From NCBI GenBank assembly GCA_009392195.1, contig VFGY01000029.1, forward strand, positions 1-64,000: a stretch of 64,000 nucleotides of DNA, written 5' to 3'. The notes beneath the pieces were generated by a model. It was not told the origin of the DNA and made no database searches. It was given only the letters and a program-made list of their open reading frames with translations. Origin of the DNA: SAR202 cluster bacterium (lineage in GTDB: Bacteria; Chloroflexota; Dehalococcoidia; Lucifugimonadales; OSU-TB39). Shown in pieces: positions 4,734 to 17,086 of this stretch. A program made the position numbers and the translations under genes. The stretch's first letter is position 1, and the number at the start of each line of letters is the position of its first letter.

Positions 4734-5696
4734 TCAATGTCGCAAATACTTTTTTGGAATCTCAGCTCCAACAGTATATTCTAAATTTCCTAATCTAACC
4801 ATTTGATAAACGTTAACTCTAAAATCTGGATTCAAGCACATATGCATATATGCATCCTTTTCGTCGATTTCGTATTCTGTTACCATCCACTCCATCAAAT
4901 TAACGATAGCAGATTCTACGGCATCTTCCAAAGGTCTGTACGAATATAAAGAAATAATCGACTCTTCTTTTTCTAGACGAACAAAAGGAATTCGCTTATT
5001 CTTTATTATCTTACAGCTTAAAGTAACTTCAGATCTGGTCTCATCTGCAGTACCGTAAAATTCCGTATCGCCTTGACTGGCATGCACATCACCTACATAT
5101 AGTAATCCTCCTTTATGGTAACAATTCAAATAACATTTAGTTTTTTCTTTCATATCTCTTACATCTAGGTTGCCACCCCATGGACCTTGTCCAATTGCAC
5201 TTGTTTCTACTTCCCTCTCGGGTGCCGTCGCTATTGTGCCAATCATTGGTTTTAAATCCCAAGAAATTTTGTCGTTCAAAAATCCTTTTCCATCTCTTGT
5301 AGTGCCACTAGGTCCAATTTCGTGTTTTATAATCTTAACGAAAGGACCTCTCACAGATTGCCATTTATATGAATCTCCTAATGGACCAACACCTGGTCTT
5401 ATATTTGTAAATCCTTGATCATCTACAACGATCTTTTCTATATTAACCTCCAACAAATCCCCAGGCTCCACTCCATCTATAAAAACAGGTCCACCAACAG
5501 GATTACCTTTCGGAGGAGTAAATTTCCTGGTCGGAAAATCATCTATTTTTGGAGCAACATCAGCCGACCTTATATATCCAGACCCAGCATCTTCAGTTTC
5601 TATGACAAATGATTCCCCTTCAGATACATGCAGTTTAGGCTTGTGCCTAAAGTCAAATTCGTATTCAAGTGCATTTGCACGAACTATCCTTTTCAT
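4734..5696 (-). CDS. Acetamidase/formamidase family protein
   Basis: 320 aa; GNPVGGPVFIDGVEPGDLLEV and YVGDVHASQGDTEFYGTADE are typical of FmdA/AmdA proteins. Confidence 0.85.
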   Translation of the reverse strand: MKRIVRANALEYEFDFRHKPKLHVSEGESFVIETEDAGSGYIRSADVAPKIDDFPTRKFTPPKGNPVGGPVFIDGVEPGDLLEVNIEKIVVDDQGFTNIRPGVGPLGDSYKWQSVRGPFVKIIKHEIGPSGTTRDGKGFLNDKISWDLKPMIGTIATAPEREVETSAIGQGPWGGNLDVRDMKEKTKCYLNCYHKGGLLYVGDVHASQGDTEFYGTADETRSEVTLSCKIIKNKRIPFVRLEKEESIISLYSYRPLEDAVESAIVNLMEWMVTEYEIDEKDAYMHMCLNPDFRVNVYQMVRLGNLEYTVGAEIPKKYLRH

Positions 5697-5719: not shown

Positions 5720-6940
5720 TTAGTGTAAAGCTGCAGCAGTGGCTGAAGCTTTTTCGTTAACTAATTCCCCATCTTCAAATCTAGATAGACTAAATGGTTT
5801 TATTAAATCTGGTACTTTGTGGTTCATTATTAATTCAGCAGTAGTTTTACCCGATATTGGTGCAGCTTTAAAGCCCCAAGTCCCCCATCCACAATTCAAA
5901 ATCAACCCTTTCGCCCCCTCAACAAAGCCCATTACCGGCGCATAATCAGGCGTCATATCACATAAACCAGTCCATTGCCTTAATATATTTGCATCACGTA
6001 AACAAGGCAACAATTCAAGAACAAACGTCGACAATTCTTCTAACATAAAAAGAGTTGATTTTTGGCTGAAAGTCGAATATGGGTCTACCGGCCCTCCTAT
6101 TACTATCTCGCCTCTATCGGTTTGATAAGCATATGCATGTAGTTTAGGCGAAGAGATAGTCGCACTTAAAATAGGCTTAAGTGGTTCAGTTACCATTGCC
6201 TGCAAAGGATAAGTGCTAATTGGTAAAGTAATGTCCATCAATGACATTACAGAGGAACTCCAGGCAGCTGTGGCGCTTACTATATTATCAGCTAAAATTT
6301 GTCCTTTGGTTGTCTTAACTCCTTGCACACGTTGTCCGGATAAAACAAACCCATTTACTTCAGTAAAAGGAAATATTTTTACTCCAAGTTTGCTAGCTTC
6401 ACGAGCATAGCCCCAAACAACTGCATCGTGTCTTGCTGTACCTGCAGGGGGGTGATACAAAGCAGCTATGACTGGGTGCGGCTTTCCAATCCGCAAATCC
6501 AATTTAGGTTCTATTTCTAATATTTCTTCTGGGCTTATAATCTTACTCTCAACTCCTAAAGCTTGGTTAAATTCAGAACGGAGGTTTAAATTGAAAATAT
6601 CTGATTCCGAATGCCCTAAATCAAGCCTTCCCATTTGGTTAAACAAAATATTAAAACTCAACTCTTTCGAAAGATCTTCGTATAATTTTAAACTTTCTCG
6701 AAAAAAGGGAATTCCTTCAGCAGTTAGGTAATTCGCTCTTATTATCGCTGTGCTACGAGCGCTAGCTCCTCCTCCCACATACCCTTTATCGAAAACAGCT
6801 ACATTGTTAATACCGTTTCTAGCTAAATAGTAAGCGGTGGATAGTCCATGGACACCTGCTCCAATAATGATCACATCATACTTATCATTTGGTTGAGAGG
6901 AAGACCACATATTTTTAATTTCGGGGGATATGAATCTCAA
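5720..6940 (-). CDS. FAD-dependent oxidoreductase, sarcosine oxidase beta / N-methylglutamate dehydrogenase subunit A-like
   Basis: 406 aa; IIGAGVHGLSTAYYLA, CGWGTWGFKAAP; clustered with SoxD/A/G homologues. Confidence 0.88.
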   Translation of the reverse strand: MRFISPEIKNMWSSSQPNDKYDVIIIGAGVHGLSTAYYLARNGINNVAVFDKGYVGGGASARSTAIIRANYLTAEGIPFFRESLKLYEDLSKELSFNILFNQMGRLDLGHSESDIFNLNLRSEFNQALGVESKIISPEEILEIEPKLDLRIGKPHPVIAALYHPPAGTARHDAVVWGYAREASKLGVKIFPFTEVNGFVLSGQRVQGVKTTKGQILADNIVSATAAWSSSVMSLMDITLPISTYPLQAMVTEPLKPILSATISSPKLHAYAYQTDRGEIVIGGPVDPYSTFSQKSTLFMLEELSTFVLELLPCLRDANILRQWTGLCDMTPDYAPVMGFVEGAKGLILNCGWGTWGFKAAPISGKTTAELIMNHKVPDLIKPFSLSRFEDGELVNEKASATAAALH

Positions 6941-7632
6941 GCTTTAGCTCCATCGGTTATTATTTGTTTGATTATTTGATTTCCTATAGGAGCAATGCCC
7001 ATAGAATTGCCTAAAGCAATAATTTGATTCCAAATATATAACCCAATTTCACGCCCTACATATATTTCGTAACATACCTTACCTACAATATCTAATCTGA
7101 GTAAATAAGCATGTTGGTGCATTACAGAAATTTGCGCTACTGACATATTTGGAAACATTTTATCTCTAATATCAAATGAACTTATTGCAGAAATAATATC
7201 CTTAGCTTTTGGACCGACCAACCTTATCCCAGTCAATCCCGAAGTTATGTTTACAAAAGGGATTCCTTTTTTTTCAATTTGGATTAAAATCTTTTTTAAA
7301 TGTTGATCTCCTAAAATCAACCATTGATTACTTGTTAGTTTATTTAATATAAATTCAAATCCATAGTCGGATGATTTCATAATCATAACTTTACAATTAT
7401 TACCAGATACAATTTCACAGTATTCGGATAAAACTCCAACAGCATCTTCATCGTGAATAATCAGTTTAACTTTTGAACTTACGTCGTTAATCCCAACAAA
7501 TCTTTCAACAATTTCAAGTTCATCTTTAATTTCTGCATATCGGTTCGGTACCATCCATCCGTCAATTTCGCTAAATATTGCTTTATTAGTTTCGTGAAAT
7601 TGATGGACTGCACTTATGGCTATAGGTTTCAT
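6937..7632 (-). CDS. Sarcosine oxidase gamma / N-methylglutamate dehydrogenase subunit D-like
   Basis: 231 aa GcvT-like small protein between SoxA- and SoxB-like genes with 4 nt overlaps. Confidence 0.75.
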   Translation of the reverse strand: MKPIAISAVHQFHETNKAIFSEIDGWMVPNRYAEIKDELEIVERFVGINDVSSKVKLIIHDEDAVGVLSEYCEIVSGNNCKVMIMKSSDYGFEFILNKLTSNQWLILGDQHLKKILIQIEKKGIPFVNITSGLTGIRLVGPKAKDIISAISSFDIRDKMFPNMSVAQISVMHQHAYLLRLDIVGKVCYEIYVGREIGLYIWNQIIALGNSMGIAPIGNQIIKQIITDGAKA

Positions 7633-10580
7633 ATTTTCAATCTCTCACCAGTTGGATCATAAATTGGACTCATAACAATTCTAGCGGGATAATCTACATT
7701 ACCAACTCTTATGTTTATCACCGAATTTTCAACTGCAAATTGATTTGGAACCCAAACTAAACCAAAACCCTTTCCTATAACTGGGCTTAATCTTGAGCTA
7801 GTTACCTTACCAAGAGGTTGTCCATCTATTATAACTGGATCTCCATCGTCAGGAATAACATCAGCCTCCATCACAAAACCTGCAAGTAAATTTTTGAACC
7901 CCTTTGATTTTTCAAAAGCTAAAGCTTGTTTCCCTATAAAGTCTTCCTTATCAAATTTCACAGCCCATGAAGCACCTATGTTCAAAGGGTTACTAAGGAT
8001 ATCGGTATCTTGATTAGGTATTATATGTTGCTTTTCAAGTCGCAAAATCCTTTGCGCTTCAACTCCGAAGGGATTTATCCCGAATTCTTTTCCTGCCTCA
8101 ATCAATCTTTTCCACATATATTCACCATATTCAGACGGGAAATGAATCTCCCATCCTAGTTCACCTACAAATCCTACACGCAGCAATCTGCTTTTAACCC
8201 CAGCCACTTCTGCATTTTTAAAATTCATATATGGAAATTGTTCAGTATTCAAATCTGTATCAGTTAATTTTGATAAAACATCCCTTGCAAATGGTCCAGC
8301 TATGTTGATCGCTGCGTAAGATGATGTCACATTAACAATATGAACTTTTTTATTCATGCCTACCAACCACCACTTAAACCATTGTTCAATAGATTCCACT
8401 CCAGCCGTGGAAGTTGTTACAAAATAATGGTTATCATCCAACTTAGTCACAGTACCATCGTCCATAATCGTTCCATTATCAGCACACAATATGCCATAAC
8501 GGATTTTGCCTATTTTTAAATTAGAAAAACGATGGGTATATAAGCGATCTAATAATTCACCTGCTCCATCACCTTGCACATCTAACTTGCCTAAAGTACT
8601 TACATCTATAACACCAACTTTATTCCTTACTGTTAAAGCCTCAGTAGAAGGGGAACCATAATCCAAAGGTCTCTGCCAACCCCCTATATCAACCATTTGA
8701 CCGCCATTTTTCCTGTGCAGCCTATCAATCGATGTTAAATGTTGTACGATTGACTCTGGGCGCGCCAAAGAAGCAATTGGGATGGGGGATAATGGAGGCC
8801 TTCTAGTTGTTAACCCTCCACCTTCAAAATCTAAATTAGAAGTACTCCCACAAATTCGAGCGAAAGAATTTTGGCACATTTCACCCTGACAAGGCCCCAT
8901 TGTCACGGTGGTATATCTTTTTAAAGTCTGAATGTCAGTATAACCTTCATCAATAGCTTTTTTCACATCCCCTGCCAAAACATCTTCGCAATAACAAATA
9001 AATGTTTTACCAGATGATTGCACCCTATTATCTTTCGTGGTTAATTTTTCCGAATTTTTAATTCCATCAGTTATAGAGTCGTCAATATTTTTTATCTCAC
9101 CAACTAAATCACCAGAATAAAACCCTGCGTAACACGCTGCTTGTAACCCTGCCTTCTTACCTGACAATAAATCAAATTCCAAATTGAGTTCACCGGAAAC
9201 TCTACCTGCATAAAATACACTTTCAACCTCATTTTTTGGCAAAAACTGATTCATTTCAGGATCAAATTCAACGTTAAAACCGGATTGCTGTAGCAAGCCA
9301 AAATTAGTTTGCATACCGTCACTCACTGCCAAAATATCACAGCTAACATCAATGGAATCCCGACCAGTCGAAATGGGACTGATAACACAGCCCTCAATAT
9401 GGTTGCCACCTTTTGATTTTACTATTGTGTATCCTAAATAAGTTTGTATTCGGTGTTTATTCGTTTGGGCCAATAAATCTAAATCGTCTAATTCCTTTCT
9501 CTCATCTACTATCGCCACAACCTCAATATAAGCGTCTACCATGTCTAATGCAGTCTGATAAATCAAATCCGATGAACCAAAAACCACTGCCTTTCCCCCA
9601 GGTTTTAAACCATATAAACGTATCAATTTATCAACTGCTGAACACAACATAACCCCTGGCAGATCATTATTTACAAAAGCAGGAGGTATTTCATGTGCAC
9701 CGGTAGCAATTACCAATGATTTCGAACGTAACTTGATGAAACTTTCATTTTTTCTAATTCCCAAAAGATTATCTTCATATGCTCCAAAAACCGAACTATC
9801 ATTCAATAATGTTATTGATTTGTTTGAGATAATTTCTGATACAAGGCTTGAGTTTAATTCAGTTATAGATGATAAAGTTTCTTGACCCGATATTTTTATT
9901 CCATATGGCCTGGACCACCGCAAATGTCCACCTAATTCACTATGCTTATCAACCAAAGTCACATCACAACCATGTTTTGCAGCCTCTATAGCAGCTGACA
10001 TACCCGATGGACCTCCTCCAACTACAACAACATCACTATGCATATCTCTACTTTCATAATTAGTAACACCATCGGATGTTGTAGAGATAGAACCTAAACC
10101 GGCTACCTTTCGTATTATTTTTGCAGCTATACTCCAAAAAGATTTTGGAGTATGAAAAAATTTATAATAAAATCCTACAGGCATTAACCAACCAAATTTA
10201 TTTGTAATACTCATAAAATCTATAGACAAAGATGGCCAAGCATTTTGGGATTTAACTATCATTCCTTCCCGTATTGATTTTTGACAACATCTTACGTTAG
10301 GAACTCCATCTACTGTGACTAAACAATTGGGGCAATTACCTTCAACACACAATAACCCTCTAGGTCTATGGTATTTAAAACTTCTACTGAATATTCTTAC
10401 ACCCGCCCCATACAATGCGGATGCAATAGTATCACCTTTATATCCTTTAATTTTGTTCCCATCAAATTCAAATGTTCTAGTAGAGGATAAATCAATATCC
10501 AACCCTTTACTTCTTGAGTTTAAAGGAATAATTGATTTATCGGCTTCAGATTTCGACATTTTTTTTGAATTAATCCTCAA
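7629..10580 (-). CDS. Sarcosine oxidase alpha / N-methylglutamate dehydrogenase subunit C-like
   Basis: 983 aa; ferredoxin-like CVEGNCPNC, FAD site VVGGGPSGMSAAIEAA, CYCEDV...CQGEMC, C-terminal GcvT-like folate domain. Confidence 0.92.
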   Translation of the reverse strand: MRINSKKMSKSEADKSIIPLNSRSKGLDIDLSSTRTFEFDGNKIKGYKGDTIASALYGAGVRIFSRSFKYHRPRGLLCVEGNCPNCLVTVDGVPNVRCCQKSIREGMIVKSQNAWPSLSIDFMSITNKFGWLMPVGFYYKFFHTPKSFWSIAAKIIRKVAGLGSISTTSDGVTNYESRDMHSDVVVVGGGPSGMSAAIEAAKHGCDVTLVDKHSELGGHLRWSRPYGIKISGQETLSSITELNSSLVSEIISNKSITLLNDSSVFGAYEDNLLGIRKNESFIKLRSKSLVIATGAHEIPPAFVNNDLPGVMLCSAVDKLIRLYGLKPGGKAVVFGSSDLIYQTALDMVDAYIEVVAIVDERKELDDLDLLAQTNKHRIQTYLGYTIVKSKGGNHIEGCVISPISTGRDSIDVSCDILAVSDGMQTNFGLLQQSGFNVEFDPEMNQFLPKNEVESVFYAGRVSGELNLEFDLLSGKKAGLQAACYAGFYSGDLVGEIKNIDDSITDGIKNSEKLTTKDNRVQSSGKTFICYCEDVLAGDVKKAIDEGYTDIQTLKRYTTVTMGPCQGEMCQNSFARICGSTSNLDFEGGGLTTRRPPLSPIPIASLARPESIVQHLTSIDRLHRKNGGQMVDIGGWQRPLDYGSPSTEALTVRNKVGVIDVSTLGKLDVQGDGAGELLDRLYTHRFSNLKIGKIRYGILCADNGTIMDDGTVTKLDDNHYFVTTSTAGVESIEQWFKWWLVGMNKKVHIVNVTSSYAAINIAGPFARDVLSKLTDTDLNTEQFPYMNFKNAEVAGVKSRLLRVGFVGELGWEIHFPSEYGEYMWKRLIEAGKEFGINPFGVEAQRILRLEKQHIIPNQDTDILSNPLNIGASWAVKFDKEDFIGKQALAFEKSKGFKNLLAGFVMEADVIPDDGDPVIIDGQPLGKVTSSRLSPVIGKGFGLVWVPNQFAVENSVINIRVGNVDYPARIVMSPIYDPTGERLKI

Positions 10581-10824
10581 CTAATCTCGTATTAGATACT
10601 TTGTTCGTCAGAGTATCTCTAGTTGCAATCAACCAATTCCTACACCCGGTAGCATGATACCACCACTCATCCTGTTTCCCAGCAACATTATTTTTAAAGT
10701 AATAATATTTAGCCCATAAACCTCTATCATCTGATTTTTCAGGCCTTGACGTAACTTCGCCACCTGACCTAAATTCATATGCATCACGAACCCCACAATT
10801 AGGGCAATCTATCAAAAAAGACAT
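10570..10824 (-). CDS. Sarcosine oxidase delta / N-methylglutamate dehydrogenase subunit B-like
   Basis: 84 aa; CPNCG..., YYYFKNNVAGKQDEWWYHATGCRNWLIATRDT. Confidence 0.9.
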   Translation of the reverse strand: MSFLIDCPNCGVRDAYEFRSGGEVTSRPEKSDDRGLWAKYYYFKNNVAGKQDEWWYHATGCRNWLIATRDTLTNKVSNTRLVED

Positions 10825-10885
10825 GTTTCAATCCATTAACAATATTGTTTAAAAATGAAATTCAACTTATATCCAATATGCGACT

Positions 10886-11269
10886 TCAGATTATTATTTT
10901 CCGAAAAGAATTTTTTACCGATATTTTACCGTGTTCAAAAGTAAAGATGTCGCATCCTCTTACTTTGCTCTCGATTCCTTGATTATCTGTAGAGGCAAAA
11001 GTCCATTCAGAAACCCCTCTATCTCCTGCAACAAAATGACTCGCTTCCACCCATTTCCCATTGGGAAATTTGTCTAGCACAGCTTTAAAACCTTGTTTCA
11101 CGTCCTCATACCCAGAATATTTCATCCCGTCTATATTAGGACCTGAAGACAATTGAAATACAGGGTTATCAGACATAAATGTCATCAATAGATCGATGTC
11201 ATGATCAGTCCATGCGTCAGCAAACCTCTGCAAAAATCCTATTGTTACCTCATTAGACGTAGATCCCAT
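10886..11269 (-). CDS. SnoaL/NTF2-like protein
   Basis: 127 aa; FADAWTDHDIDLLMTFMSD...F, typical NTF2-like pattern. Confidence 0.75.
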   Translation of the reverse strand: MGSTSNEVTIGFLQRFADAWTDHDIDLLMTFMSDNPVFQLSSGPNIDGMKYSGYEDVKQGFKAVLDKFPNGKWVEASHFVAGDRGVSEWTFASTDNQGIESKVRGCDIFTFEHGKISVKNSFRKIII

Positions 11270-11304
11270 ATTAATCTCCTAAATCAAATTCTTCATTTTC
11301 TCAA

Positions 11305-12672
11305 CTAAAACATAGTTAAATATCGATCAACTTCCCACTTAGAAACAGTTTTATGATAATCAGCCCATTCTGCTTTTTTTAATGAAATGAATTCGTCATA
11401 AATTGAACCCAATGAACTCGCTACAACGGAATCATTTTCTAAATTTTCAATCGCTTCGTTAAGATTTTGAGGCAAAATTCCAATACCTTTTGACCGTATC
11501 TCTTCCAAGCTTAAATCATAAAGATTCCCTTTAAAAGGATCTCCTGGGTCAAGACCTCTCTTTACCCCATCCATTCCAGCAGTCACATATGACGCAAATA
11601 CTAAATAAGGATTACTAGCAGCTGATACAGTTCTATCTTCTAAATGCCCAGGACCAGCAGTTCTTATCATTTGGGTCCTATTGTTATCGCCATAGGAAAC
11701 AAATGCAGGGGTCCATGTGAATCCAGAAGTTGTGCTCACAAGCCCAGTGCCTATTTGAAGCCTTTTGTAACAGTTAACGGTTGGTGAATTAATTGCACAT
11801 AGCGCTTTTGCGTGGTCCAATATACCGGCTATAAAACTATATCCCATGGATGATAAACCTAACCCTCGTTTATCATTTCTATCCAAAAACAAGTTTTCTC
11901 CAGTTTTTACATCCTCTAAATGAAAATGTATATGTCCACCACTCCCTGTTTTATCGGAAAAAGGCTTAGCCATGTGAGTAGCAATAGCCCCATGTTGTTT
12001 TGCATACTGGCTGGTCATCATCTTAAAAAACGTGTACCTATCTGCAGTAGTCAAAGCATCGCTGTAGGTAAAATTCACTTCATATTGCCCATTGGCATCT
12101 TCATGATCTGATTGATAAGGATCCCAACCCAAGCTATCCATTCCATTCATAAGTTGACGCAAATAACTGCTAACATTTGCAATCCCTTTAAAGTCATAGC
12201 AAGGTTTATCTAGAGTATCTAAATTATCCGGATCCCATACTTTTATTTCACCACCAGATGTTTTTTCAACCAAAAAATGTTCTGGTTCTATACCTACATA
12301 AAATGCAAATCCATCATCTTTCAATTGATTCAAAGTATTTTTCAAATGTTGTCTTGGGTCGAACATATATGGCTCTTCATCTACAAATAAATCACCTGCG
12401 AATCTTGCTAATCCTTTTTCCCATGGCACTAGTGTATAAGTATCCAAATCAACTTTAGCTAGCATGTCATGTGAGTGTGGACCTTGGCCAAGTCCCATGA
12501 CAGCGGCTCCTGCAAATCCCGCTCCATCGTCTATTACATCATCAAGGTTCTTGGCTGGAACCATTTTAACTTTAGGGGATCCATTTATATCAATGAACTG
12601 TACTAAAATATATTCAATACCATCTTCTTCAATTCTTTTTTTTATTTTTTCTCTTTGGTCCATAGGTAACAC
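11305..12672 (-). CDS. Glutamine synthetase-like ligase, GlnT/gamma-glutamylmethylamide synthetase type
   Basis: 455 aa; GS motifs (GSGGHIHFHL, NNRTQMIR, EDRTVSAASNPYLVFA); adjacent to mgs/mgd-like genes. Confidence 0.85.
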   Translation of the reverse strand: MLPMDQREKIKKRIEEDGIEYILVQFIDINGSPKVKMVPAKNLDDVIDDGAGFAGAAVMGLGQGPHSHDMLAKVDLDTYTLVPWEKGLARFAGDLFVDEEPYMFDPRQHLKNTLNQLKDDGFAFYVGIEPEHFLVEKTSGGEIKVWDPDNLDTLDKPCYDFKGIANVSSYLRQLMNGMDSLGWDPYQSDHEDANGQYEVNFTYSDALTTADRYTFFKMMTSQYAKQHGAIATHMAKPFSDKTGSGGHIHFHLEDVKTGENLFLDRNDKRGLGLSSMGYSFIAGILDHAKALCAINSPTVNCYKRLQIGTGLVSTTSGFTWTPAFVSYGDNNRTQMIRTAGPGHLEDRTVSAASNPYLVFASYVTAGMDGVKRGLDPGDPFKGNLYDLSLEEIRSKGIGILPQNLNEAIENLENDSVVASSLGSIYDEFISLKKAEWADYHKTVSKWEVDRYLTMF

Positions 12673-12704
12673 ACCTTTATATATTTATTGCATATTTAGA
12701 ACGT

Positions 12705-14009
12705 TTAGTTATCTCCAAAAATTTTGTTGGTACCAACTAATGGAACTCTCGCCATAGCAGATGCTTCTATGGTTAAGGCTGCTAAATCTTCCGGTTCAAG
12801 ACTATGAACATCGCTTTTTCCAATAGACCTCGCTAACAAAGTCATTTCCATAGTCATTGCATTAATAAAATTTGCAACTCTTTCAGCTCCTTCATCAGGA
12901 TCTAGTCTGTTTGTCAATTTTTCATCTTGTGTTGCAATTCCAACTGGACACTTACCTGTGTGACATCTATTACATTCTCCAGCCGGAACTCCTATTTCTT
13001 CTAGGAAATTTGAACCTGGTATTTCTCTATTACAATTCAAGGCAATTAATGCCGAAATCCCAATTGCTACAGCATCAGCTCCCAAGGCTAAAGCTTTCGC
13101 TACATCTGCTCCACTCCTTATTCCACCAGAAGCAATCAAACTAACCTTGCCATCCAACTTGATTTCTCTCAAAGCTTCTCTCGCTAATACTATTGCAGGT
13201 ACTGTTGGTATACCGGAATGGTCTAAGAGAACCTCAGAAGATGCTCCAGTTCCTGCAATCATACTGTCAACTACAACAGCATCTGCTCCAGCTTTGGCCG
13301 CTAATTTAACATCATCTGAAACCCTACATGCTCCCAATTTTACATGAACAGGAACCTTCCAATCAGTTGCCTCCCTCAACTGTTCAATTTTCATTGCCAA
13401 ATCATCAGGACCAAGCCAGTCAGGATGCCTTGCAGGACTTCTTTGGTCAATACCAGTAGGTAAATCTCTCATATCAGCAATGTGATCCAAAACTTTAATG
13501 CCCATTAACATCCCACCAGTTCCAGGTTTAGCTCCTTGTCCCACAACTATTTCAATTGCTTGAGCCTGCTTAAGATGATGTGGGTTGAAGCCATATCGAC
13601 TAGGTAATACTTGATAAATCAATTTATCTGATGACTTTCTTTCAGATAGCAACATTCCACCATCGCCAGTACAACTGGCGGTACCAACCATGTTTGCCCC
13701 TTTACCTAAAGCTGTTTTTGCATTCGCAGATAAAGCTCCATAACTCATTCCTGTGATATAAATTGGTGTATCAAGAACAAGGGGGTTTTCCGCATTTAAT
13801 CCCCCTATAACAGTCCTGGTATTACATTTCTCTTTATATCCTTCTAATGGAAAGCGCGTTAAACCAGTGGATAGGAACGTTAAATCATCAAAATGGGTTA
13901 CTTTTTGAAAACTACTAAATCCACGAATTCTATATCGTCCCAAATCTGATTTTGCATGTATATCTTCTATAACCCAAGGCGAAAAAATTTGACTTGTTCT
14001 GTTAACCAT
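12705..14009 (-). CDS. FMN-binding glutamate synthase large-domain protein (MgsC/GlxD-like)
   Basis: 434 aa; GMSYGALSANAKTALGKGA, GQGAKPGTGG, ASGGIRSGADVAKALALGADAVAIG, CNRCHTGKCPVGIATQ. Confidence 0.92.
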   Translation of the reverse strand: MVNRTSQIFSPWVIEDIHAKSDLGRYRIRGFSSFQKVTHFDDLTFLSTGLTRFPLEGYKEKCNTRTVIGGLNAENPLVLDTPIYITGMSYGALSANAKTALGKGANMVGTASCTGDGGMLLSERKSSDKLIYQVLPSRYGFNPHHLKQAQAIEIVVGQGAKPGTGGMLMGIKVLDHIADMRDLPTGIDQRSPARHPDWLGPDDLAMKIEQLREATDWKVPVHVKLGACRVSDDVKLAAKAGADAVVVDSMIAGTGASSEVLLDHSGIPTVPAIVLAREALREIKLDGKVSLIASGGIRSGADVAKALALGADAVAIGISALIALNCNREIPGSNFLEEIGVPAGECNRCHTGKCPVGIATQDEKLTNRLDPDEGAERVANFINAMTMEMTLLARSIGKSDVHSLEPEDLAALTIEASAMARVPLVGTNKIFGDN

Positions 14010-14021
14010 AATTACCCCAAC

Positions 14022-14714
14022 CTAAACTGATGATTTCTCTAATCTTTCTAATTTATCAAAATGGTAAAGTTTTTTCCCCGAAACTATCTTTTTAAATTCA
14101 GGCTGTTTGTCTATACCATTTTTTCCCAACTTGTCCCAAATTGAAACCAATTCCTTTTTCTCCACATCAACAACAACTGCGTCATTCCCTAAAGATGCTA
14201 TGTCTCCACCGACATAAATTTCTCCTTCATACATTGAATCCCCAACGGCATCTCCAACATCACCACAAACGATAATCTGCCCTTTTTGCATCATAAATCC
14301 TGTCAAAAACCCAGAATCCCCACCAATAACTAAAGAACCACCTTTCATAGATATGCCTGCCCTAGCTCCAGCGTTCCGCCCAACACATATAATCCCTCCT
14401 CTCATACTTGCTCCAACTGAAGCACCAGCATCTTTACTTATTGTTATAGTACCGCTCATAAGGTTTTCACCTAACGCCCAACCCGAATTTCCTTCAACTA
14501 ATACAGATGGACCGTCCAATAAACTAGCACAATAATAACCTAAACTTCCTCTTACTGTAATATTGCATTCCTTTAAAACACCTACTATTATATTGTGCCT
14601 AGCTTTGGGGTTTATTATTTCAATATCTTCTTTTGCTGCAACCAATTCATTTAATCGAACATTAATTTGCCTAGTCGAAAGTTTTGAAGCATCTATACTA
14701 ACCAAGTCATGCAC
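14022..14714 (-). CDS. Glutamate synthase GXGXG-domain protein (MgsB-like)
   Basis: 230 aa with repeated G-x-x-x-G beta-helix pattern. Confidence 0.88.
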   Translation of the reverse strand: MHDLVSIDASKLSTRQINVRLNELVAAKEDIEIINPKARHNIIVGVLKECNITVRGSLGYYCASLLDGPSVLVEGNSGWALGENLMSGTITISKDAGASVGASMRGGIICVGRNAGARAGISMKGGSLVIGGDSGFLTGFMMQKGQIIVCGDVGDAVGDSMYEGEIYVGGDIASLGNDAVVVDVEKKELVSIWDKLGKNGIDKQPEFKKIVSGKKLYHFDKLERLEKSSV

Positions 14715-15601
14715 TCCTTTTCCTGCGGCTCAAATCTATCAATTTCATCTTGAAAAACGCTTAACAAGGCTGTTTCTTCTGAAGCTACCGCAACTCTATC
14801 TTCAGTTTCCATTATGACTAAAGGTTTTGCTGACCAACTATCTTTTGCATAACCAATACCATCATTGGTAGAAACCAGATAGGTAAATGTTCCATCTAAA
14901 ACTTCTATTGATTCACGAATGGCTTCATCTAAGCTTAAACCTGACTTAATTCTTTCTGCCAAAAATACTGATATGATTTCTGAATCATTTCCAGTTTGAA
15001 ATTTGTGTCCCATATCCTGATATTTTCTTCTTAAGGAATGATAATTAGTCAGTTGACCGTTATGCACAACTGAGATGTCAGGGAAAGGATATGCCCAAAA
15101 TGGGTGTGAATGACTAACGTCAATCTTGCTTTCGGTAGCCATCCTTACATGTCCAATTCCGTGAGTACCTTTAATCTCACCTATTGAATGACGATCATTT
15201 AGCTCAACTGCATCTCCTACATCTTTCACTATCTCTGAATTTGTTCCAATTGAATCTAAGTCTACTCCTTCAATATCTGCAATAGTATTAGCTAACTTAC
15301 TCAAATCTCCTTCATAATTAGCACATATTTTACCGAATCCATTTGAAAACTCAGAAAATTCAATTACTCCCCCAATACTTGAAACTTCTTTTGACAATAT
15401 TTCTAATGCATTTGAGTTTTTGTCTTCTATCCTATACCTGACAATATAATCTGCTTTGTTTTCAACTCCTCCTACAGTAATACCTGTAGAGTCTCGACCT
15501 CTATGTTCTAGAGATTCCAACATCTTAATCAAATCTGATCCAACCGAAGCTAATCCAGCTGATTCAGTATTCTTATATATTACTCCGATAATTCCACACA
15601 A
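14693..15601 (-). CDS. Class II glutamine amidotransferase, glutamate synthase N-terminal-domain protein (MgsA-like)
   Basis: 302 aa; N-terminal MCGIIGV (Cys2 nucleophile), LEHRGRDSTG, VVHNGQLTNY, TGNDSEII. Confidence 0.92.
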   Translation of the reverse strand: MCGIIGVIYKNTESAGLASVGSDLIKMLESLEHRGRDSTGITVGGVENKADYIVRYRIEDKNSNALEILSKEVSSIGGVIEFSEFSNGFGKICANYEGDLSKLANTIADIEGVDLDSIGTNSEIVKDVGDAVELNDRHSIGEIKGTHGIGHVRMATESKIDVSHSHPFWAYPFPDISVVHNGQLTNYHSLRRKYQDMGHKFQTGNDSEIISVFLAERIKSGLSLDEAIRESIEVLDGTFTYLVSTNDGIGYAKDSWSAKPLVIMETEDRVAVASEETALLSVFQDEIDRFEPQEKECMTWLV

Positions 15602-15646: not shown

Positions 15647-17086
15647 TCATTCGGCCATAAACCATCTTGTATCTTTTTCACAAATTTGCCTTTCTAAATA
15701 AATCGATTCAAGATAATGCGCTACATCAAATAATGTACTTTCATTATAATGGTTTGTAACAATTTGAATCCCTATTGGCAAACCATTATCACTCATCCCG
15801 AAAGGAATTGAAATCGCTGGAGAACCAGTTATTCCAAATGTACATGTAATTGCAGCAGCATGACTAGCTGGCATTTGTTCTCCATCAATGGTAATAATTT
15901 GCGAATCATGTTTGGGAGCCAAATTAGGCGCTGTTGGGCAGATTAAAACATCATATTTGGCAAAATAGTCAGTAAACCAATACTTATAACTATCACAAAC
16001 ACTACTTGCTTTCAAAAATGTGTCCAAATCTGGTCTATCTACTGATAACAGTCCTCTTATTGGGTCTGACAAATCTGATTCGTTTCCGCGCACATACTCA
16101 TTCAAATATTCAACTCCTTCTCCAGCTAGTAATACGTAAGTAGCATCTATCGGAGAAAGGCCATCGATGATTGGAATCGAAATTTTGTCTACAGTACAAT
16201 CGTTACGTTCCAAAGCTTCTACGGCAGAATGAACAACATTTCTTATCTGTGGATCCACTGGATCATATGGTTCATTATCTATCCATCCAACTTTCATCCC
16301 TTTAAAATCCGATGAAGATTTACTTTTTGCAGGGATTGGTAACGCATATTGATCTAAACCATTATATCCGCTCAATATATAATATGAACTAACTATATCT
16401 CTTACACTTCTTGCAATCGGACCAGCATGAAAATATCTTGTAAGCATTTCAGGCCAATGTCCTGTCAAAGGTATACGGCCTTGCGTAGGCTTAAATCCAA
16501 TTACGCCACAATAATGTGACGGTAGTCTATTGGAACCTCCTAAATCACTTCCAACACCCAATGGAGAGAGTCCTGCCGATATACTTATAGCTTCCCCTCC
16601 AGAAGATCCACCACATGTATACCCTTTCATCCAAGGATTTTCACCTTTACCAAAAATAGCACCAGATGTTTCGGCTGCCAGGGCAAATTCAGGTAAATTA
16701 GTCTTACCTATCAAAATCCCTCCAGCATTCTTTAATCTCTTTACAACTTCAGAATCACTTTCAGGAATTCGATCTGCAAATAATTTAGAACCTCTTGTAG
16801 TTCTGATACCCTCAGAATCAAACACATCCTTAATCGTAAATGGAATTCCATGCAGAGGACCTCTAATTAAACCAGTGTTCAACTCTTTGTCTGCTCGCAT
16901 AGCTTCTTCAAACACATTTTCAGCAAAAGTCACAATACCATTTAGTTTCGAATTAAACTCACGAAACCTTTCAACATGAAGAGAAATCAACTCACTGGAA
17001 CTAGTATGGCCATTCCGTATACTATCTGCCATAAAAGTAGCATCCTGATGTATTAAATCTTTACACATAAAACCAAACCAAACCAA
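15647..17086 (-). CDS. Amidase-signature family protein
   Basis: GKTNLPEFALAAET...CGGSSGGEAISISAGLSPLGVGSDLGGSNRLPS. Confidence 0.92.
   Translation of the reverse strand: MVWFGFMCKDLIHQDATFMADSIRNGHTSSSELISLHVERFREFNSKLNGIVTFAENVFEEAMRADKELNTGLIRGPLHGIPFTIKDVFDSEGIRTTRGSKLFADRIPESDSEVVKRLKNAGGILIGKTNLPEFALAAETSGAIFGKGENPWMKGYTCGGSSGGEAISISAGLSPLGVGSDLGGSNRLPSHYCGVIGFKPTQGRIPLTGHWPEMLTRYFHAGPIARSVRDIVSSYYILSGYNGLDQYALPIPAKSKSSSDFKGMKVGWIDNEPYDPVDPQIRNVVHSAVEALERNDCTVDKISIPIIDGLSPIDATYVLLAGEGVEYLNEYVRGNESDLSDPIRGLLSVDRPDLDTFLKASSVCDSYKYWFTDYFAKYDVLICPTAPNLAPKHDSQIITIDGEQMPASHAAAITCTFGITGSPAISIPFGMSDNGLPIGIQIVTNHYNESTLFDVAHYLESIYLERQICEKDTRWFMAE

Follow-up and report, generated by a model that had tools for sequence, protein, structure and literature searches.

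The dark ocean harbors SAR202-type Chloroflexota in abundance, a group that has been studied in uncultured form. The locus described here raises the question of whether a single minus-strand run of genes in a probable member of this group encodes a route for the use of methylamine, or whether its parts serve another amine or belong to separate systems that merely lie side by side. The window, by which we mean the whole stretch of 64,000 nucleotides that was analysed, covers positions 1-64000 of contig C29 of a MAG that is 2.05 Mb in size, consists of 67 contigs, and is 97.9% complete with 9.2% contamination. The host belongs to the Chloroflexota, class Dehalococcoidia, so the proviso of the first-pass annotation that the genome might not be proteobacterial turns out to be the case. 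That it belongs to SAR202 is probable, given the many families of its order and marine-sounding sources. As judged from gene content, trees and residues, the run very probably encodes a complete N-methylglutamate pathway for methylamine.

A combination of ORF lists and family-model scans identified nine intact minus-strand ORFs between positions 5720 and 15601 in the order mgsA-mgsB-mgsC-gmaS-SnoaL-mgdB-mgdC-mgdD-mgdA (Table 1). The first-pass annotation had read the same order as MgsA/B/C, GmaS, a SnoaL-like protein and SoxD/A/G/B, and had counted all eight parts of the pathway as present. Both statements hold, with gmaS, mgsABC and mgdABCD each matched by family models. Related genomes show this set in conserved synteny, so the arrangement is not a product of chance. 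Individual subunits also carry recognizable motifs. For example, MgsA begins with M-C-G-I-I-G, which includes the Cys nucleophile, MgsC has the Cys motif CNRCHTGKCP, and a Zn-ligand pattern (C-x2-C...H-x3-C) is visible in MgdB. The MgdC architecture is Fer2_4, Pyr_redox, SO_alpha_A3, GCV_T and GCV_T_C, with a dinucleotide-binding fold and a C-terminal folate-binding aminomethyltransferase domain (256.9 bits). The SnoaL-like gene is rarely conserved beside gmaS, being found there among related loci in L036 only.

The same-strand run, with short gaps, reaches past the module on both sides. An amidase gene lies upstream across a gap of 45 bp, and an amidase is also found directly upstream of gmaS in five related loci (L045, L046, L047, L090 and L091) and upstream of mgsA in L037. 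This amidase could possibly supply methylamine from an N-methyl amide. Downstream, from position 5696 down to 1674, acetamidase/formamidase-like, kbl, SDR and DapA-like genes follow with gaps of 21-38 bp; the first of these also occurs near the module in loci L037 and L041. Promoter and terminator scans of the region returned sites that were no more numerous than in shuffles.

Table 1. Features of the putative methylamine module and its immediate neighbors (positions in the window)
Feature	Position	Strand	Assignment	Evidence and context
amidase	15647-17086	-	amidase	PF01425; upstream of module
mgsA	14693-15601	-	class-II glutamine amidotransferase subunit of N-methylglutamate synthase (putative)	GATase_7/GATase_6 match; adjoins mgsB/mgsC in relatives
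mgsB	14022-14714	-	GXGXG (glutamate synthase alpha-like) subunit	PF01493; synteny in relatives
mgsC	12705-14009	-	FMN/Fe-S glutamate-synthase-like catalytic subunit	PF01645, 332 bits; co-occurrence; tree
gmaS	11305-12672	-	gamma-glutamylmethylamide synthetase (putative)	glutamine-synthetase catalytic domain; TIGR03105 above cut-off; PDB 9qur; diagnostic residues; tree
SnoaL-like	10886-11269	-	SnoaL-like small protein	PF12680 (SnoaL_2)
mgdB	10570-10824	-	SoxD-like delta subunit, 84 aa	PF04267; ORF
mgdC	7629-10580	-	SoxA-like alpha subunit	family models; tree
mgdD	6937-7632	-	SoxG-like gamma subunit	GCV_T, 82 bits; synteny
mgdA	5720-6940	-	SoxB-like flavin subunit	DAO; tree; residue test
acetamidase/formamidase-like	4734-5696	-	acetamidase/formamidase-like protein	PF03069, 87 bits; directly downstream of mgdA

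In the proposed pathway, GmaS would join methylamine to glutamate at the expense of ATP to form gamma-glutamylmethylamide. MgsABC, a dedicated three-subunit relative of glutamate synthase, would then act in two stages. MgsA would free methylamine from gamma-glutamylmethylamide with recovery of the first glutamate, and the methylamine would pass to the FMN/Fe-S subunit MgsC for reductive joining with 2-oxoglutarate to give N-methylglutamate. MgdABCD, a relative of heterotetrameric sarcosine oxidase, would subsequently oxidize N-methylglutamate to glutamate and load its methyl carbon onto tetrahydrofolate, which yields 5,10-methylene-THF. This product could be converted by FolD and formate-THF ligase either to formate, with a gain of ATP, or to C1 units for serine and purine synthesis, a fate that would make methylamine a nitrogen source and a C1 or energy supplement rather than a sole carbon source. 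We infer these reactions, the substrate, the folate route, the physiological role and the electron acceptor of the module; what the sequences show directly is gene content and order, class membership in trees and at diagnostic residues, strict co-occurrence, and separate sets for GS/GOGAT and sarcosine oxidase.

A family-by-family search of the genome found both FolD and formate-THF ligase, which would give the C1 unit a folate route. The same search did not find PurU above its cut-off or Fae in the genome, so among the C1 genes that the first-pass annotation had suggested looking for, folD and fhs are there while purU and fae were not found, the latter being a point against the pathway. In SAR202, C1 oxidation, a multimeric sarcosine oxidase and formate dehydrogenase have been described within choline breakdown (PMC5395668), and the absence of formaldehyde assimilation genes has been noted (PMC5864207). 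These published C1 traits fit a nitrogen and energy role and not full methylotrophy.

The identity of the ligase is central to this reading. GmaS scores 551.8 bits with the GmaS/GlnT model TIGR03105 (cut-off 469.6) but 323 bits with the GlnA model (cut-off 429). Its best PDB match is the glutamate--methylamine ligase 9qur at 442 bits, followed by RhGmaS (7cql), the GmaS of Rhodovulum sp. 12E13, at 320, while chains of true glutamine synthetase (GS) reach 247 bits at most. In RhGmaS the ammonium residue Asp50' is absent, with Ala48' in its place, the Glu of the Glu flap is replaced by Trp300, and a methylamine pocket has been named (PMC7948447). The sites of that study correspond to Ala54, Trp320, Lys36, Tyr159, Gln187, Asp189, Glu191, Glu198, Asn200 and catalytic Arg332 of the window protein. 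We compared them in an alignment of 100 proteins that included the window GmaS, 21 proteins from other members of its order and six GS from the same order. The window protein and the 21 others have the GmaS state at these sites, with Ala54 replaced by Gly in 3 of these 22 rows. The six GS differ at Lys36, Ala54, Tyr159, Gln187, Asp189, Asn200 and Trp320, where they have Asp at the Ala54 position and V/F/I, F, H, D and a gap at those of Lys36, Tyr159, Asp189, Asn200 and Trp320, respectively. Neither of the features that mark a GS, the Asp50 ammonium residue and the Glu flap, is found in the window GmaS. In the tree, GS are set apart with a support of 100, and the GmaS proteins of the order fall into one group (support 82) whose nearest neighbors are GmaS of Planctomycetota, Latescibacterota and Verrucomicrobiota. 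By these sequence features the window GmaS is not a glutamine synthetase, and the suggestion of the first-pass annotation that it be checked against that family comes out on the GmaS side by tree, PDB ranking and residues alike.

An alternative that keeps the same three-step logic is that the module acts mainly on another small primary amine, such as ethylamine or another N-alkylamine, to form an N-alkylglutamate. Support for this comes from the relatively broad substrate range of RhGmaS (PMC7948447) and from the divergence of the order's MgdA and MgsC from their proteobacterial counterparts. For example, the window MgsC shares 53-58% identity with most of its proteobacterial counterparts, and in the MgsC tree the proteins of the order form their own long-branched clade, with a second MgsC type as its sister; the root of this tree is a very distant GltB domain on a long branch, and we used its inner groupings alone. 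However, the window GmaS retains every residue of the methylamine pocket that was mapped in RhGmaS, and MgdC keeps the full folate-binding aminomethyltransferase domain, which is sensible for a methyl group. We therefore consider another main substrate unlikely.

The sister of the order's MgsC clade (support 91) is a second MgsC type found in five genomes (G001, G022, G032, G040 and G056), and 5 of the 18 pathway genomes have MgsABC of this second type only, two observations that weigh against the pathway reading. In G001, G022 and G032 a glutamine-synthetase-like ligase is encoded close to it. For the ligase of G001, the models TIGR03105, GlnA and gamma-glutamylputrescine synthetase give much the same score and none reaches its cut-off, and the ligases of all three genomes carry neither GS nor GmaS residues (Tyr54, His159, Asn189 and Phe320). 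In G001 and G022 the second-type mgsC is followed by a gene for a DUF3830 protein, and the G001 protein also weakly matches a model of the cucumopine synthase C-terminal domain. A tentative idea, which we regard as possible rather than probable, is that the order's MgsABC belongs, as one branch, to a broader family of modules composed of an amide ligase and an N-substituted-glutamate synthase. The second-type modules would then start from amines different from methylamine to make and use N-substituted glutamates, and the second MgsABC in these genomes would have to serve GmaS as well.

A different explanation is that two unrelated systems lie side by side, namely a GS that assimilates ammonia together with a three-subunit glutamate synthase, and a sarcosine oxidase that takes part in choline or betaine breakdown. 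Standard annotation would suggest as much with the names 'type III glutamate--ammonia ligase' and 'sarcosine oxidase', as does the multimeric sarcosine oxidase already described in SAR202 choline degradation (PMC5395668). The first half of this explanation conflicts with a GmaS that is without the ammonium-site Asp and the Glu flap. Additionally, GlnA, GltB and GltD are encoded with Amt on contig C24 of the same genome, and MgsABC is therefore not needed as a glutamate synthase or for ammonia assimilation. We reject a GS plus three-subunit GOGAT on the GmaS residues together with the separate GS-GOGAT locus.

The second half conflicts with the oxidase subunits. In the SoxB/MgdA tree, 48 gmaS-type rows are split from 10 sarcosine-oxidase-type rows with a support of 100. 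The MgdA proteins of the order are among the 48 rows, beside gmaS-linked proteins from Methylophaga, Pseudomonas and other phyla, while the sarcosine-oxidase side holds PDB 1vrq/2gag, plasmid soxBDAG sets (two of which adjoin glyA or purU) and a second set that this genome encodes on contig C34. The SoxA/MgdC tree has three fully supported groups composed of the sarcosine-oxidase-type rows, the rows of the order and the other gmaS-linked rows, and in both the MgdA and MgdC trees all loci of the order form one clade. The comparison of MgdC and MgdA with true SoxA and SoxB that the first-pass annotation had called for thus separates them, with a support of 100, from sarcosine oxidase. The window SoxA, SoxB and SoxD homologues score 730.6, 403.8 and 83.1 bits against curated sarcosine-oxidase models (TIGR01372/01373/01374) with cut-offs of 1164, 529 and 116.5, whereas the alpha, beta and delta subunits of the contig C34 set pass these cut-offs (1296, 624 and 121). 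MgdA of Methylophaga is likewise under the cut-off (483).

In MgdA, His171, which we take to be the covalent-FMN site, and Arg68 and Lys358, which presumably bind the substrate carboxylate in this family, are kept in 58 of 58 rows, and the FAD motif is present. Seven alignment columns separate the two classes, including Lys277 to Arg, Gly296 to Ser and Gly355 to Trp, the last of which is three residues before active-site Lys358. The clade alone is no proof of the substrate of an oxidase, because the alphaproteobacterial sets beside gmaS in Azospirillum and Phyllobacterium group on the sarcosine-oxidase side of the SoxB tree, so N-methylglutamate dehydrogenase function extends over more than a single clade. 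For the window oxidase, we reject identity as a true sarcosine oxidase on the trees and the sub-cut-off scores.

The distribution of the three enzymes is also difficult to reconcile with two unrelated systems. Our sample of the order comprised 59 genomes from about 41 families, and GmaS (at least 63% identity), MgsC (at least 61%) and MgdA (at least 58%) occur in an identical set of 18 of these, from 14 families. The chance of such a match for one pair under random placement is about 1.5e-15, a rough guide only that ignores shared ancestry. The parts of the pathway are far apart on the chromosome in G032 (at 0.28, 1.48 and 1.63 Mb), G021 and G010, so linkage does not explain their co-occurrence. 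Sarcosine-oxidase-type SoxB is scattered independently among the genomes and is present in G026, which has no GmaS. Given this strict co-occurrence of all three sets even where they are unlinked, and given the genome's own GlnA-GltB-GltD and soxBDAG sets, we consider two unrelated systems to be very unlikely, and a single N-methylglutamate pathway remains our preferred reading. A contaminant contig, or one recently acquired from a proteobacterium, as the 9.2% contamination of the bin might suggest, is highly improbable since the nearest relatives are from the same order (GmaS, MgdA and MgsC are 80-90% identical in G015), tetranucleotide make-up correlates with that of other contigs of the bin at r 0.97-0.99, and the GmaS, MgdA, MgdC and MgsC trees place the window inside the clade of the order.

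A GmaS-like protein was found in 22 of 400 sampled Chloroflexota genomes, and we also observed the pathway in Planctomycetota, Latescibacterota, Cyanobacteria and others. Published accounts describe it from Mycobacterium, with mgdABCD homologues in Arthrobacter (PMC5023230), and from Binatota (PMC8262859). Our search of the open-access literature, with subscription papers and preprints outside its range, found no report of it in SAR202, Dehalococcoidia or Chloroflexi. The first-pass annotation was right that the lineage is not proteobacterial, but a place outside the Proteobacteria is not in itself new for this pathway. What is well supported is a known pathway in a new taxon, accompanied by a synthase branch that has diverged and by a sister module, and its presence in part of this deep-ocean SAR202-type lineage seems not to have been recognized previously. 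That roughly one in three of the order's sampled genomes has a complete methylamine route points to methylated amines as a source of nitrogen and energy, a prediction that cultivation and tracer studies can put to the test. Some of the 'multimeric sarcosine oxidase' genes reported in the SAR202-type group may be N-methylglutamate dehydrogenase. Surveys of gmaS that are based on proteobacterial sequences, which are 44-51% identical, may also miss the clade of this order.

For completeness, we compare the module with characterized systems. The N-methylglutamate pathway of methylotrophic and N-scavenging proteobacteria such as Methyloversatilis, Methylophaga and Pseudomonas shares with the window all eight genes, the gmaS-mgs-mgd neighborhood, the signature residues of GmaS and an MgdA in the gmaS-linked clade. 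However, the proteobacterial loci compared here have an mgdABC(D) block and a gmaS-mgsABC block, whereas the order in the window is mgsABC-gmaS-mgdBCDA. The window MgsC is also about 55% identical and in a clade of its own, and the window has extra SnoaL, amidase and acetamidase-like genes. With RhGmaS (7cql) and 9qur, the window GmaS shares catalytic Arg332, Asp189 and Glu198 as well as the methylamine-pocket residues, but it is distant from both, with 320 bits and 442 bits, respectively, across roughly 450 residues. It has Phe201 in place of Trp189, and some of its relatives carry Gly instead of Ala at the former Asp50 site. Finally, heterotetrameric sarcosine oxidase (1vrq, 2gag) matches the window Mgd subunits in subunit architecture, in the His that binds FMN covalently, in the Arg and Lys that bind carboxylate, and in the folate domain. 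The window Mgd subunits nevertheless form a separate clade (support 100), score below the curated cut-offs and carry class-specific changes, and the window genome holds a second set of the sarcosine-oxidase type elsewhere.

The module has recurring neighbors, among them an amidase gene that immediately precedes gmaS or mgsA across several families (the window and compared loci L037, L045, L046, L047, L090 and L091), and this upstream amidase may release methylamine from N-methyl amides. Another neighbor is the amidF-kbl-SDR-DapA block, comprising acetamidase/formamidase-like, glycine C-acetyltransferase, SDR and DapA-like genes, which adjoins the module in whole or in part in four families (the window, L037, L041 and L044). 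In the window the module is also adjoined by arginine biosynthesis genes; genes for an acyl-CoA dehydrogenase and for a conserved hypothetical protein of 933 aa are scattered among them.

Coordinates of module neighbors and compared gene sets
Feature	Location	Remark
amidF-kbl-SDR-DapA block	window:1674-5696	
Amidase	window:15647-17086	
argH, argG, argD, argB, argJ	window:17889-28473	arginine biosynthesis
Further FAD-dependent amino-acid-oxidase-like protein	window:28700-30226	family matches weak only
Second module	L083:6615-12044	glutamine-synthetase-like ligase with MgsABC
Second module	L085:5359-11999	glutamine-synthetase-like ligase with MgsABC
Second module	L084:7269-12570	glutamine-synthetase-like ligase with MgsABC
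Separate soxBDAG set	L078:5203-10292 (G000:C34)	own genome

The operon of L089 (JACZVE010000082.1; MgsC 77%, GmaS 65%) groups inside this order's clades though its contig is filed under SAR324, and is either misbinned or transferred. Related genomes carry a second module whose ligase has Tyr54, His159, Asn189 and Phe320 (window GmaS numbering) at all three loci, a combination of neither glutamine synthetase nor GmaS. In relatives G001 and G022 a DUF3830 gene directly follows the second-module mgsC, with that of G001 weakly matching the cucumopine-synthase C-terminal domain.

A soxBDAG-like set of the MgdA clade on a Mesorhizobium plasmid (L172) adjoins amidase, beta-eliminating lyase, threonine dehydratase and purU genes. 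No gmaS is among the genes listed for this stretch; the MgdA clade may take in other N-methyl amino acid oxidases. The separate soxBDAG set of the window's own genome provides a helpful internal contrast, its alpha, beta and delta subunits passing the cut-offs for sarcosine oxidase.
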